From Acidobacteriota bacterium (GTDB lineage Bacteria > Acidobacteriota > Terriglobia > Bryobacterales > Bryobacteraceae), in NCBI GenBank assembly GCA_016870995.1, contig VFZU01000057.1:1-35513 (forward strand): a stretch of 35,513 nucleotides of DNA. The letters are read 5' to 3'. Made by a program: the position numbers and the translations under genes. Below are positions 29,574 to 33,706 of this stretch, in pieces. Below the pieces are notes generated by a model. The model saw nothing but the letters and a program-made list of their open reading frames with translations. It searched no databases and had not been told where the DNA came from. Within the stretch, counting starts at the first letter, position 1, and each line of letters begins with the position of its first letter.

Positions 29574-29602
29574 TTGACGCGTTTTCGGATTCCAATTATA
29601 TT
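29574..29602 (+). promoter_or_regulatory. Near-consensus sigma-70 promoter
   Basis: TTGACG (29574-29579) and TATATT (29597-29602) are separated by exactly 17 bp. This is the best promoter match I see in the window. Transcription would start at about 29609, running right. Confidence 0.75.
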
Positions 29603-29638
29603 CAGGACATCACTGAGAAAGGAGGTGGTCCAGTCGAA

Positions 29639-29692
29639 ATGAAAAACGGCAGTAATATAGACGAGACAAAGCGTGAGGTGATTGACTGCTGA
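29639..29692 (+). CDS. Small ORF, 17 residues, function unknown
   Basis: The ORF is MKNGSNIDETKREVIDC, ATG at 29639, TGA at 29690-29692. Upstream, AAAGGAGGTGGTCCAG can pair with the 16S 3' end over 15-16 positions (one G-U wobble), with 5-13 nt between the pairing region and the ATG. It is a polar peptide with a C-terminal cysteine, no signal and no transmembrane segment. Its strong promoter and leader support expression, but translation is not shown. It could instead be only a leader within a regulatory RNA. Confidence 0.35.
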   Translation: MKNGSNIDETKREVIDC

Positions 29693-29778
29693 AATAGCGT
29701 TGATCATGTGTAGACTCCGACAGTGCCCGGAGTCGTTGCGAATGTGGACCTCTCGCCTCGCGCAAAAAGGTCTTGTGG

Positions 29779-29828
29779 AATCCCGCTGTGCCGCTGAGAA
29801 AGCCGCAGCGGGATTTTCATTTTCTTCA
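29779..29828 (+). terminator. Rho-independent terminator of the short transcript
   Basis: AATCCCGCTG (29779-29788) pairs with CAGCGGGATT (29806-29815); extra internal pairs are possible between GC-rich arms. On the plus strand the stem is followed by TTTTCATTTTC. It also lies just past the 3' end of the convergent rnpB, so it may serve both directions. Confidence 0.8.
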
Positions 29829-30236
29829 GCCCTTCTTCTATAAGCCGGTTCCTGTTACGCCCGGGCTTGCGCCCGATCGCAGGCAATCATTCCTCTTGGC
29901 GACATATTGCTACGCCGCTCCAGCAGCCTACCCGGGAGTCGTAGCGAGACGGGCCGCCTCTGCTCCCCTATTTGGCCTTGCTCCATGTGGGGTTTTCCCT
30001 GCCAGGTGCGATTGCTCGCCCCGCGGTGCGCTCTTACCGCACCTTTTCACCCTTACTCCCTCAGCCGAAGCTTTCAGAAGCGGTACATTTTCTGTGGCAC
30101 TTTCCGTCCAAACCGCTTTGAGCGGCCCAGCCCGGCCGTTAGCCGGCACATTGCCCGATGGAGACCGGACTTTCCTCCCGAAACTCACCTACTGAGTAGG
30201 CTTATTTCCGGCGATTGCCCGAAGAAGGGCTAAAGT
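29822..30236 (-). ncRNA. rnpB: RNase P RNA (rnpB), bacterial class A
   Basis: On the minus strand the ~415-nt RNA shows the conserved core: GGAGGAAAGTCCGG near the 5' end, GTGAAAAGGTGCGGTAAGAG, a later ACATGGAGCAAGGCCAAATA block, and AACAGGAACCGGCTTATAG near the 3' end. The P1 helix closes it: AGCCCTTCTTC at the 5' end pairs with GAAGAAGGGCT at the 3' end, which set the coordinates (ends good to about 5 nt). This is the catalytic RNA that trims the 5' leader of pre-tRNAs with RnpA. Open frames across this region are shadows. Confidence 0.95.
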
Positions 30237-30455: not shown

Positions 30456-31211
30456 ATGAAGCGTTGTATCTCTACTCTTTGCCTGTTGGTCGGAGCCTCC
30501 GTGGCTTCCTACGCAGGCGTTATCTCTGCCATCACGGGCAACATGACTGGCCCCAACGGTTATCTCCAAAACTTCGATAGCCCTGCGATGTTCCCCGCAG
30601 GCTCCTTCACCTCGCTGCCGCAGTTTAACGCGACCGGTGGCACCCTCAATACCAACGTCAACATCCAGGCTGCGGGCGGTTCCGGCTCCCTCAACACCGG
30701 CAACACCGGTTCGGTCCAAACAGGCGGCAACGCCACCTTCGGCCTCTCGGGTCAATACTTGAATTCCTATGCCGGGTTCCCAGCCAATACGGCCCTATCT
30801 TCCAATTTCGTCCGAACCTTAACCTTTACGTTTAGCCAGGCAGTGAGCGAATTCCTGTTCAACTATGCCGCTCACGATGGAACAGGTTTCTACACGGTCA
30901 ACGGTCTCCCCACTGAGTACGCTCTGGTCAATCAGGCTTCTTGCACCGCAAACTGCACCCCGGCTTCGGCTGGATTTGTGGTGGATGGCTCCGTAACCTC
31001 GATTTCGTTTTTCACGATCACCTTCCAGGGCAATGACCGTGACATGAGCCGCGGTGGCGACATCGTCTTCATCGACAACCTTCGCTTGGTCGGCCCTGCC
31101 AACGGTACCGTCGAAACCTCCGGCGGTGGCAACGTAATCCCTGAACCCTCCACCTACGCCCTCATGGGTGCTGGCCTCCTGGCTCTCGGCTACGCCCGTC
31201 GCAAGAAGTAA
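30456..31211 (+). CDS. PEP-CTERM sorting-domain protein, secreted
   Basis: The 251-residue protein has a signal peptide (MKRCISTLCLLVGASVASYA) and ends with a PEP-CTERM sorting signal: VIPEPSTYALMGAGLLALGY then ARRKK. This signal directs cleavage by an exosortase and surface display. The central part is low-charge, G/N/T/S-rich (GSGSLNTGNTGSVQTGG), with a jelly-roll-like late segment (VTSISFFTITFQGNDRD). The ATG has a strong GGAGG ribosome site 7 bp upstream. It is a single-gene unit with its own terminator. The exosortase is not in the window. The specific binding target is unknown. Confidence 0.92.
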   Translation: MKRCISTLCLLVGASVASYAGVISAITGNMTGPNGYLQNFDSPAMFPAGSFTSLPQFNATGGTLNTNVNIQAAGGSGSLNTGNTGSVQTGGNATFGLSGQYLNSYAGFPANTALSSNFVRTLTFTFSQAVSEFLFNYAAHDGTGFYTVNGLPTEYALVNQASCTANCTPASAGFVVDGSVTSISFFTITFQGNDRDMSRGGDIVFIDNLRLVGPANGTVETSGGGNVIPEPSTYALMGAGLLALGYARRKK

Positions 31212-31285: not shown

Positions 31286-33706
31286 ATGAATTGGGTCTTG
31301 TTCCTCGCCCTTGCAGCTCAAGATGGCCCTCAGGTGCTCAAAGAAAATTGCGCTCCTTGTCACGGAGCCACCACACTCGTTTCGGCCGGCCTCAATCTTA
31401 CTTCCAAAGAGCTCGCCATCAAGGGCGGCTCCCGTGGCACGTCCCTCATTCCCGGCAAAGCCATCGAAAGCCGGATCTACCGTTTCGCGGCTCACTTCGA
31501 AGAGCCCCACATGCCGCCAAACAAGCCCCTCACCACATCCCAACTCCAAATCCTCAAGGACTGGATCGACCAGGGCGCAGCCTGGAACGCACCTGCCACC
31601 ATTTCCACTGAAGAAGCAACCGCCGCTCTCGCCCGCCTCGAAGACCGCCCCATCAAACCTCAAGAACGCACCTGGTGGGCATTCAAGAAACCAGTCAAGC
31701 CAGCAAACGGCCCCAATTCAATCGACGCATTCCTCGCAGCCAAATGGCAGCAAAAGTCCCTCACACCCTCTCCCCGCGCCGACAAGCGCACCCTCGTCCG
31801 CCGTGCCTACCTTGACATCATCGGCATCCCGCCCACCCGCGAAGAAGTCCATGCATTCCTCACCGACAATAGCCCCAAAGCTTGGGAAAATCTGATCGAC
31901 AAACTTCTCGCCTCCCCTCATTACGGCGAGCGCTGGGCCCGCCACTGGATGGACATCGCTCGTTATGCCGATTCCGGCGGCTACGAATACGACCGCGACC
32001 GCGATAACGCCTGGCGCTTCCGCGACTATCTAACGCGCTCTTTCAACGAAGACAAACCTTACGACAAGTTCCTCCTCGAACAACTCGCTGGCGACGAGCT
32101 CTTCCCCGCTTCCAGCGACGCCCGCATCGCCACCGGTTTCCTCCGCCTGGGCCCAGAAAACAATCTCAAAAACGAACAGACACGCCTTGACGAACTCGAC
32201 GACATCGTCTCAACAACAGCCAACTCCCTGATGGCTCTCACCGTCGGCTGCGCCCGCTGCCATAACCACAAATTCGATCCGATTCCGCAAAAAGACTACT
32301 ACCGAATGCAGGCCGTTTTCTTCTCCACCAAGCCGGAAGAAAAGCCACTCGTCTCCGCCGAAGAGGTCGAAAAGCACAAGTCCGAAATGAAGCGCATCGC
32401 CGACCTCCAGGCCCCGCTCAAAAAACAACTCGATGCCTTCATCAAGCCCTATAAGGACGCCTACATCGCCGAGAAAAAGGCAGCCCTTCCTGAGTACTTG
32501 AAGCAAGCCCTTGCCACCCCCGAGGCGCAACGCAACGAAGGCCAGAAGCTGAACGTCATCCAGATCGAAAAAACGCTGATGGGCACCCCGGAGACTCTTC
32601 CAAGCCGCTTCAGCTCTGCCGACAAGGCCCGCTACGACGACATCAACAAACAGATCTCCGCGCTCGATAAACAAAAGCCTAAGGCTCTTCCTACTGCCAT
32701 GGCCATCACCGAGAAAGGCCCTACTCCCGAGCCCAGCTACTTCCTCCACCGCGGCAGTCAAAAAGGCTCGCTCATGCAACCCGGCGTCCTCAGCGTCGCC
32801 ACCGAAAATGAATGGCCCTTCCCCGCTCCTCCCCCGGACGCCAAAACCAGCTTCCGCCGCGCCGGCTTCGCTAAATGGATTACCAGTCGCGAAAACCCGC
32901 TTACAACTCGCGTCATGATCAACCGCGTCTGGCAGCACCACTTCGGTGAAGGCCTGGTCCGCACGCCCAACAATTTCGGCAAGATGGGCGAACGCCCCTC
33001 TCACCCCGAACTCCTCGATGCTCTCAGTGTCGAGTTCATGGACAACGGCTGGCACCTCAAGCCCATCCACAAGGCCATCCTGATGTCGAACGCCTACCAG
33101 CAAGCGAGCGACGACATCGCTTCCAATCTCGACAAAGATCCGGAGAATCGCCTCCTCTGGCGCATGCCGCGCCGCCGCATCGAAGGTGAGATCATTCGCG
33201 ATTCCATCCTCGCCACAGCCGGCTCGCTCAACCGCACCGTCGGCGGCGAACCCGTCTTTCCCTACATCGATCCCAGCCTCTTCCAGGCCTCCTCAAAACG
33301 CACCTGGAACGGTCGCCCCGACGATGACCCCGCCACCTGGCGTCGCAGCATCTACGTCTTCAGCAAGCGGTCCATCCCTCTACCCATGTTTGAAGTCTTC
33401 GACAAACCCGACACCATCGGCTCCTGCGCTCGCCGCACTCGCTCCACAGTCGCCCCGCAAGCCCTGATCCTGATGAACAACAGCTTTGTCGCCTTCCACG
33501 CCAAACGCTTCGCCGATCGAATACAGCGGGAATCCGGCGGCAATCCCGAAAAGCTCATCGCCCTGGCCTTCGAACACGCCTACGCAAGGCCGCCCAAACA
33601 AGCTGAAATCGAACGCAGTGCTCGCTTCCTGGCCAACGGCAAAGACTCGCTCGTCGACTTCTGCCAGGCCCTTCTCAATTCCAACGAATTTGTCTACATC
33701 CCCTAA
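31286..33706 (+). CDS. PSD1 / DUF1549-DUF1553 secreted cytochrome-type protein
   Basis: The 806-residue protein has a short signal-like start (MNWVLFLALAAQ) followed at once by a haem c motif CAPCH (C22, C25, H26) in a planctomycete-type cytochrome C (PSCyt1) domain. DUF1549 (~140-330) contains YLDIIGIPPTREEV, GERWARHWMDIARYADSGGY and a second CxxCH, CARCH, at ~322-326 followed by NHKFDPIPQKDYY. DUF1553 (~540-790) has RVWQHHFGEGLV, LPMFEVFDKPD and a final AYARPP segment. Such proteins are always found with a DUF1501 partner, as here (1-bp gap). They are thought to process sugars or sulfated polysaccharides in Planctomycetes, Verrucomicrobia and Acidobacteria, but the chemistry is unproven. 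Confidence 0.93.
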   Translation: MNWVLFLALAAQDGPQVLKENCAPCHGATTLVSAGLNLTSKELAIKGGSRGTSLIPGKAIESRIYRFAAHFEEPHMPPNKPLTTSQLQILKDWIDQGAAWNAPATISTEEATAALARLEDRPIKPQERTWWAFKKPVKPANGPNSIDAFLAAKWQQKSLTPSPRADKRTLVRRAYLDIIGIPPTREEVHAFLTDNSPKAWENLIDKLLASPHYGERWARHWMDIARYADSGGYEYDRDRDNAWRFRDYLTRSFNEDKPYDKFLLEQLAGDELFPASSDARIATGFLRLGPENNLKNEQTRLDELDDIVSTTANSLMALTVGCARCHNHKFDPIPQKDYYRMQAVFFSTKPEEKPLVSAEEVEKHKSEMKRIADLQAPLKKQLDAFIKPYKDAYIAEKKAALPEYLKQALATPEAQRNEGQKLNVIQIEKTLMGTPETLPSRFSSADKARYDDINKQISALDKQKPKALPTAMAITEKGPTPEPSYFLHRGSQKGSLMQPGVLSVATENEWPFPAPPPDAKTSFRRAGFAKWITSRENPLTTRVMINRVWQHHFGEGLVRTPNNFGKMGERPSHPELLDALSVEFMDNGWHLKPIHKAILMSNAYQQASDDIASNLDKDPENRLLWRMPRRRIEGEIIRDSILATAGSLNRTVGGEPVFPYIDPSLFQASSKRTWNGRPDDDPATWRRSIYVFSKRSIPLPMFEVFDKPDTIGSCARRTRSTVAPQALILMNNSFVAFHAKRFADRIQRESGGNPEKLIALAFEHAYARPPKQAEIERSARFLANGKDSLVDFCQALLNSNEFVYIP

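Follow-up and report, generated by a model that had tools for sequence, protein, structure and literature searches.

A conserved mini-gene RNA of Acidobacteriota with a 16S rRNA-complementary leader, a candidate translation-gated regulator and putative relative of Ms_IGR-5

What might be the role of a very short transcription unit that opens with a leader complementary to the 3′ tail of 16S rRNA, continues into an open reading frame (ORF) of just 17 codons and closes with hairpins and a terminator? Such a unit lies in a 35,513-nucleotide stretch of Bryobacteraceae DNA (hereafter, the window), facing the gene for RNase P RNA (rnpB). An original prediction, made from this sequence, had left the choice between a highly translated micro-peptide, a means of sequestering or timing 30S subunits and a regulatory RNA, and had recognised no known class. 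Comparison with relatives in the family, class and phylum leads us to favour, with moderate confidence, a regulatory RNA, gated by its own translation, through which 30S subunits are sensed or engaged, and points to Ms_IGR-5, an actinobacterial small RNA (sRNA), as its probable distant relative.

Results

The predicted promoter, ORF, hairpin and terminator were all seen in the places first given for them, and the convergent rnpB was confirmed at the end of the unit (Table 1). Beyond the window, promoters scoring at least 9 of 12 against the consensus occurred at 140 of 144 loci, that of the window among them, compared with 9 of 144 after shuffling; TTGACA served as the −35 element at 118 of the 144, and the distance from the −10 element to CACTGA was 8 at 129. 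A strict terminator finder, too strict for counting terminators, was positive at 28 of 141 loci versus 2 when shuffled.

Table 1. Features of the unit and its convergent neighbour, in window coordinates
Feature	Position	Strand	Basis or remark
Sigma-70-type promoter TTGACG-N17-TATATT	29574–29602	+	Read from sequence; same layout in relatives
−35 element TTGACG	29574–29579	+	Followed by the 17-nt spacer
−10 element TATATT	29597–29602	+	Read from sequence
Predicted start and 5′ end AUCACUGA	29609–29616	+	Start placed at A29609 because of promoter spacing
Predicted pseudoknot arms CACUG / CAGUG	29611–29615 / 29721–29725	+	5 bp in the window; re-matched between families
Leader complementary to the free 16S rRNA 3′ tail (extended Shine-Dalgarno, SD)	29616–29635	+	20 bp, two G-U
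Leader core AAAGGAGGTGGTCCAG	29618–29633	+	Read from sequence
17-codon ORF MKNGSNIDETKREVIDC	29639–29692	+	ATG at 29639, TGA at 29690–29692; frame conserved, linker neutral
GAGGTG, second 16S-complementary element	29675–29680	+	Exactly five codons 5′ of the stop; kept in relatives
P1 closing helix	29671–29763	+	29671–29680 with 29754–29763; the 5′ strand is the ORF end
P2 hairpin containing the stop codon	29681–29706	+	Folds, alignment, covariation
P3 hairpin GACUCCG/CGGAGUC, loop ACAGUGCC	29713–29734	+	7 of 7 pairs with two-sided changes
Intrinsic terminator hairpin and T-rich tail	29779–29825	+	Hairpin 29779–29815; read from sequence
rnpB, RNase P RNA class A	29825–30230	−	RF00010, 259.5 bits; convergent, outside the system

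To gauge the leader, we took the 16S 3′ end from relatives (GGCTGGATCACCTCCTTTCTAAGAG), because an exact copy of TGGATCACCTCCTT is absent from the window's own draft genome. Against this end the leader is complementary over 20 nt with two G-U pairs (duplex energy, −27.8 kcal/mol), which confirms the complementarity first noted. The window holds a single exact occurrence of AAGGAGGTGRTCCA, the 4 other matches carrying 3 mismatches (4.46 expected at that looseness). In families f1 and f2 (147 loci), uninterrupted pairing with the 16S tail had a median length of 19 bp and a minimum of 14, with medians of 18 in f91 and 17 in f3, compared with a median of 6 bp at ordinary GGAGG sites before ORFs of at least 80 amino acids (151 sites in the fetched loci); the pairing is indeed far beyond that of a normal ribosome site. 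Leaders at 12 of 15 f4 loci pair over about 10 bp, then carry an extra A that bulges from the 16S duplex, then pair over about 10 more, and either base at R in GGTGRTCC preserves the pairing. In whole-RNA folding, the leader GGAGG is unpaired with a mean probability of just 0.34. Because the start codon directly follows GATCC or GGTCC in f91, f90 and f95 (spacer of 6), pairing of the full tail is hardly compatible with start-codon placement; tail capture followed by partial unzipping is suggested. Two further observations concern leaders of this kind: that of L061 is partly duplicated (ATCACTGACGTAGGTATCACTGAAG), with CAGTG missing from its P3 loop, and outside the class, an equally extended SD, AAGGAGGTGGTCCATG, precedes an ORF (MEKLVILVMAFLLG...) of 30 codons or more in L271 and L272 (genomes G272 and G218, family f45).

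The mini-ORF was parsed from the first ATG after the leader to the first stop in frame, a procedure by which its length is a multiple of three by definition, making length modulo 3 alone a circular argument. The 142 loci parsed in this way (140 from f1/f2 and 2 from f4) came from 151 rows, of which 146 were unique; L159 was left out by eye as a chance match, as were L007, L018 and L179 for an irregular pattern and L066, L069 and L093 for being too short. At all 142, the first ATG and the block from GAGG or AAGG to the stop share one frame, with GAGG lying 15 bases 5′ of the stop at 141 loci and AAGG at 1. ORFs span 12–22 codons in f1/f2 and end in TGA (71 loci), TAA (48) or TAG (23), and stops interrupt the +1 frame at 121 loci and the +2 frame at 137. 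Flanking spacers fall in all classes modulo 3 (70/47/25 for leader to ATG; 47/44/43 for stop to CAGTG, which is absent in 8), and therefore insertions on either side of the ORF need not come in triplets. Such an ORF was found at 197 of 197 loci from all groups and at 216 with other classes added, and GAGG stands five codons 5′ of the stop at 215 of the 216, these counts coming from a finder that requires GAG or AAG at that place; L407, with GGGGG in its leader, failed the finder and was read by eye.

The encoded amino acids tell a different story from the frame. Among 52 nearest-neighbour pairs, with codons bearing several changes scored change by change, linker codons accumulated 44 synonymous and 144 non-synonymous changes, a synonymous share of 0.23 versus 0.25 expected (omega-like ratio of 1.09, calculated without a positive control gene), spread 63/57/68 over codon positions. 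Purifying selection on the linker peptide was sought in these pairs and not found, and the synonymous bias proposed as a check on the 17-codon ORF failed to appear. The last six codons showed mild constraint (synonymous share of 0.34 versus 0.26 expected; omega-like, 0.68), and these same codons form P1. Because the frame is conserved while the amino acids are neutral, translation itself, rather than the peptide, appears from these comparisons to be selected; a conserved frame, neutral amino acids and a stop at a fixed structural place, the combination by which a translation-gated RNA would be recognised, were all found.

Folds and alignment give helices P1, P2 and P3 and a short P4, with the 3′ strand of P1 about 75 nt past the ORF end, P2 at the stop codon and CAGUG in the P3 loop. 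Three alignments were built, from 66 of 77 preselected sequences (A1), 84 chosen loci (A2) and 50 loci (A3). In the 84-locus alignment, which was fitted to the model and thus favours the structure, two-sided changes were seen in 22 of 27 pairs (13.7 in shuffles) and in 197 cells (40.7 shuffled), 84.4% of cells were paired (76.0% shuffled; 29–49% in slid controls) and 0 of 500 shuffles scored as high on any measure; a separate mafft alignment shows the same helices. Covariation in the hairpins, suggested at the outset as a check, was thus borne out for P1, P2 and P3, P2 being the weakest of five helices at 71.9% paired cells. A locus's own P1 outperformed a swapped P1 in 124 of 147 cases in f1/2, 6 of 8 in f3, 8 of 21 in f91, 5 of 15 in f4 and 1 of 3 in f93. 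Pairing of the leader GGUCCAG with an internal UGUGGACC was considered and rejected, as members with a GAUCC leader, inspected by eye, lack compensation.

Complementarity links the extreme 5′ end of the RNA to the P3 loop, through arms that differ by group: CACUGA/UCAGUG in f1, ACUGGC/GCCAGU in four f3 loci, GCUGA/UCAGC in L249, CGCUAG/CUAGCG in f91 and UACACA/UGUGUA in f95. Runs of at least 5 Watson-Crick pairs with the locus's own leader were present at 142 of 147 f1/2 loci, 7 of 8 in f3, 17 of 21 in f91 (14 of the 17 falling in the P3 loop region) and 2 of 2 in f95, against 15–21% with shuffled leaders; they were found at 0 of 3 f93 loci and just 3 of 15 in f4, and the single run in f90 is located elsewhere than the pseudoknot position. 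Swapped leaders also gave such runs, on f1/2 regions (73% with f3, 56% with f95 and 95% with f93 leaders), on f3 regions (78% with f93) and on f95 regions (80–100% with f90, f93, f91 and f4), these controls being unclean because the leaders are alike (shared CAC/CACUG). The swap control was clean for f91 alone (9–20%), which makes the f91 arm exchange the strongest evidence for the pseudoknot; f95 and L249 add to it. Pairing of the 5′ end with the hairpin loop beyond the stop is accordingly predicted, from the matched arms, in most groups, but finds no support in f93 or f4.

We then asked how widely the RNA occurs. A DNA search matched 22 of 41 genomes, the window's own among them, and within the family the pattern CACTGA-N(0-4)-GGAGGTGRTCC occurred in 146 of 237 genomes, its reversed control having no match. 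Within the order, R1, a covariance model from 66 aligned members, recovered the RNA from 143 of 150 genomes, nearly all with a single match (124 of 130 good genomes; 59 of 60 genera). At E 0.001, R1 matched nothing in G453, G454, G456, G503, G515, G517 and G035, whether through true loss or through gaps, and second matches, some at contig ends (G008:C208, G474:C59, G463:C24/C39, G594:C178 and G018:C176), are possibly second copies or assembly splits. In the class, R1 matched 102 of 200 at E 0.01, and R2, a sequence-only model running from leader to stop, matched 202 of 250 at E 0.01, 154 of them strongly; the 48 with E >1e-4 (counted by hand, mostly f92) were set apart as weak because short R2 matches on 16S antisense lie in the same range. 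Among the matches listed, strong R2 matches numbered one in f92, one in f5 and none in f94. In the phylum, R2 matched 86 of 297 at E 0.01; outside the class there were 16 matches at E 1e-4, plus G150 at 1.3e-4, and all 17 loci, from seven families (f21, f24, f42, f44, f51, f57 and f73), share the same kind of leader (its 16S match being shorter in f24, f57 and f73), together with a short ORF, opened by ATG or GTG, in which GAGG precedes the stop by five codons (finder set to GAG or AAG). A loose phylum-wide pattern yielded no instance of the RNA in the 30 loci among the matches listed, and a BLAST search of plasmids with one distant relative gave no match. Scanning a species collection with CACTGAGAAAGGAGGTGRTCC returned 68 stretches, of which 66 were titled Acidobacteriota of some rank; both others (L315 and L342) show the same RNA, and that of L315, titled as a Bordetella parapertussis metagenome-assembled genome (MAG), is identical to f1 locus L035, probably reflecting a mislabelled bin. 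Among the matches listed in a full-text literature search, most subscription journals being outside its scope, no report of this RNA in Acidobacteriota was found.

Gene neighbourhoods vary where the RNA does not. The rnpB gene adjoins it at 8 of 8 loci of the window's genus (L001–L008), at 0 of 12 among L009–L020 and at 0 of 20 further class loci, so that of the conservation beside rnpB originally expected, the RNA's own conservation stood and the neighbour proved particular to the genus; absence of conservation next to rnpB, named as grounds for refutation, was too narrow a test because the RNA is conserved while its neighbour varies. Comparison of 30 ORFs from 18 loci with Pfam gave MFS, TsaD, ThiG, NUDIX and other families, which recur within a bacterial family, with none common between families. 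As neither rnpB nor any other neighbour is constant across families, the unit, with its promoter, leader, mini-ORF, hairpins and terminator, is by these sequence comparisons a predicted autonomous, conserved gene. Two alternative identities were rejected: a cis-regulator of a neighbour, no neighbour being shared between families in the 30 ORFs of 18 loci, and an antisense of the 16S gene, since the RNA has its own promoter, ORF and place, although weak R2 matches of G265, G257 and G329 in the phylum search do coincide with the 16S 3′ ends of those genomes. In the window, a 251-amino-acid ORF lies beyond rnpB (30456–31211), with a C-terminus, VIPEPSTYALMGAGLLALGYARRKK, that we take to resemble a PEP-CTERM sorting signal; it is followed at 31286–33706 by an 806-amino-acid protein with a CAPCH haem-like motif, presumably of the DUF1553/PSCyt type.

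Is the RNA related to any described class? The proposed Rfam search, carried out at gathering thresholds, returned just rnpB for the window, just rnpB for 20 near relatives and nothing for 20 class loci, and the window RNA had no match to RF02471 (Ms_IGR-5) at gathering or at E up to 5. The view that it belongs to no known class thus held for the window RNA itself and gave way among its distant relatives, 3 of 19 loci, all three outside the class, passing the RF02471 cut-off of 45 with full-length matches (L403, 50.6; L399, 50.3; L390, 47.3). Below the cut-off were L392 (44.8), L404 (42.6), L401 (39.3) and others, along with all class loci searched (best L234, 39.2, and L405, 39.0). The identity therefore runs through a chain, from the window to R2, from R2 to relatives in other classes and from these to RF02471, by which the window RNA is, on sequence grounds, a putative divergent relative of Ms_IGR-5 that the Rfam model does not recognise. 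Consistent with this, the Ms_IGR-5 consensus resembles the window in having a leader, AAGGAGGUGGUCC, near the 5′ end (29616–29635 in the window), in GUGAGGUG with a stop five codons later (29673–29692), reading in frame GAG GUG GCU GCC CGC UAG, and in a downstream UCACC strand and terminator; it differs in that Rfam types it as an sRNA and its nested consensus structure marks neither an ORF nor a 5′-end pseudoknot. Ribosomal reads have been described on Ms_IGR-5 homologues in Mycobacterium abscessus and M. smegmatis Ribo-seq, with the authors' caution that footprints cover most Escherichia coli non-coding RNAs too and that sRNA Ribo-seq reads may be background (PMC4974804). According to excerpts of further reports, Ms_IGR-5 was confirmed by RNA-seq in Streptomyces lividans (PMC8079986), has a matching sRNA transcription unit in S. 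avermitilis (PMC8780764) and shares an overlap with an sRNA detected in M. smegmatis (PMC10454040); no ORF and no function are described for it in the accessible parts of these four papers (PMC4974804, PMC8079986, PMC8780764 and PMC10454040).

Other known RNAs share single traits with this one. The Rfam consensus of the Caulobacter sRNA CC2171 (RF01867) starts with cAAcaAucGAAAGGAGGUGAUCCAGUG, a leader of the same kind, and differs in that the best scores were 22.7 (L234) and 21.8 (L389) against a cut-off of 75, the match covering roughly the leader alone in L388 and L389; this suggests that extended-SD leaders may occur on sRNAs of another phylum. Sub-threshold CC2171 matches were seen in L234, L388, L389, L394 and L402, and that consensus has GAAAGGAGGUGAUCCAGUG after a few bases. 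In Bacteroidia, the extended SD of rpsU likewise pairs nearly the whole 16S tail but precedes a real protein gene, whereas here it precedes a neutral mini-ORF in a structured RNA; in the accessible account, the rpsU element extends up to 13 bp, is used by free-tail ribosomes (in Flavobacterium) and serves autoregulation by ribosomes lacking bS21 (PMC9976891). Extended SDs are also described, in the portion available, as guiding initiation in Staphylococcus aureus (PMC13009471), and the STAB-SD of cry3A is a 5′ SD-like sequence that binds 30S subunits, not for initiation (PMC4113751, in excerpt), from which the window RNA differs in having an ORF after the SD. Transfer-messenger RNA (tmRNA, RF00023) resembles it as a housekeeping RNA with a short ORF; this identity was rejected, as no RF00023 match was present in the window at Rfam gathering and the genome has a separate tmRNA, a normal copy of which was present in all 8 genomes tested (that of the window among them, at G000:C66). 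Genome G028 has a second tmRNA-like match above the cut-off (C1:6012367-6012717, 77.4 bits) beside its main tmRNA. Leader-peptide attenuators of the rnTrpL type, which are set free as sRNAs, and dual-function sRNAs, as far as partial sources describe them, also have a short ORF read on a structured RNA, from which the window RNA is set apart by a neutral peptide and, in the window, no downstream operon.

Discussion

The reading that we favour, of a translation-gated regulatory RNA, would work as follows. The leader would capture a 30S subunit via the free 16S tail, and the captured subunit would translate the short ORF; since the end of the ORF is one strand of P1, reading it would open P1 together with P2 and displace the 5′-end pseudoknot. 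At the stop codon, GAGGUG, placed six bases before the last sense codon, may slow the ribosome or keep it in place. Two states would result, the RNA being open when occupied by a ribosome and knotted closed when unoccupied, and it would report or buffer how readily free-tail 30S subunits initiate, any regulatory output depending on which state prevails. Of the roles first put forward, a regulatory RNA that engages 30S subunits and forms an autonomous conserved unit is thus the most likely on present comparisons.

Much of the same evidence could be read as a ribosome trap or store, in which an abundant RNA titrates 30S subunits or the 16S tail (as in hibernation or a translation brake) and the ORF and GAGGUG prolong the stay. 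A leader complementary to the free tail, with its duplex energy of −27.8 kcal/mol in the window, and the second 16S-complementary element near the stop at 215 of 216 loci would suit such a trap; the conserved frame, the stop inside a hairpin and the re-matched pseudoknot are all unneeded by a pure trap, and we consider this account unlikely. Similarly unlikely, and if anything slightly more so, is an ordinary trans-acting sRNA that pairs with mRNAs and whose SD leader and ORF merely shield its 5′ end via a bound ribosome: protection alone explains neither the kept frame nor the fixed distance from GAGG to the stop, despite the STAB-SD precedent on cry3A mRNA (PMC4113751, in excerpt) and the conserved, unpaired-looking stretches noted by eye 3′ of P1 in several groups.

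What of the peptide itself? The ORF is intact at all 216 parsed loci, C-termini recur (REVADC/S in f1, REVTEA in f4 and SEGAEA in f91) and there is mild constraint on the last six codons (omega-like, 0.68), as might be expected if the gene encoded a functional micro-peptide with a C-terminus such as EVAD[CS]; yet the linker is neutral (omega-like, 1.09), the recurrent C-terminal codons are the P1 strand and the ends vary by family (VADC, VTEA, GAEA and VPVT), so that we regard a micro-peptide gene, one of the roles first proposed, as highly improbable. The least probable account is a self-inhibiting switch, in which the 3′ strand of P1 contains a copy of the 16S tail that closes the leader after translation. 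Pairing between leader and 3′ domain was stronger than shuffled at 112 of 147 f1/2 loci (−16.8 versus −14.5 kcal/mol), 3 of 3 in f93 and 2 of 2 in f95, and the 3′ part of L250 (G032) holds GCTGGATCACC, with a hairpin, CCGCTGGATCACCCTAGCGG, that repeats the 16S tail sequence; there was no excess in f91 (10 of 21), f3 (3 of 8) or other classes (5 of 17), and self-inhibition by an internal 16S mimic was rejected for want of a general excess over shuffled pairing.

Translation gating may reach beyond this phylum. As a tentative extension, Acidobacteriota, Actinobacteria (Ms_IGR-5, known here from its Rfam consensus alone) and perhaps Alphaproteobacteria (CC2171) could share an ancient superfamily in which a ribosome reads a neutral mini-gene just to open the RNA, a general sensor of free 30S tails whose closed state would be the 5′ pseudoknot.

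Together, these results suggest that Ms_IGR-5, an actinobacterial sRNA for which we know of no function, can now be joined to a second phylum and to a testable anatomy: pairing with the 16S tail, a frame without a peptide, a fixed SD-like element before the stop and a putative pseudoknot between the 5′ end and a hairpin. Retention of a frame whose amino acids are neutral clearly signals that the function lies in translation itself. If this reading is right, bacteria would have in this RNA a natural means of sensing or holding initiating ribosomes, one that annotation as a non-coding sRNA has hidden.
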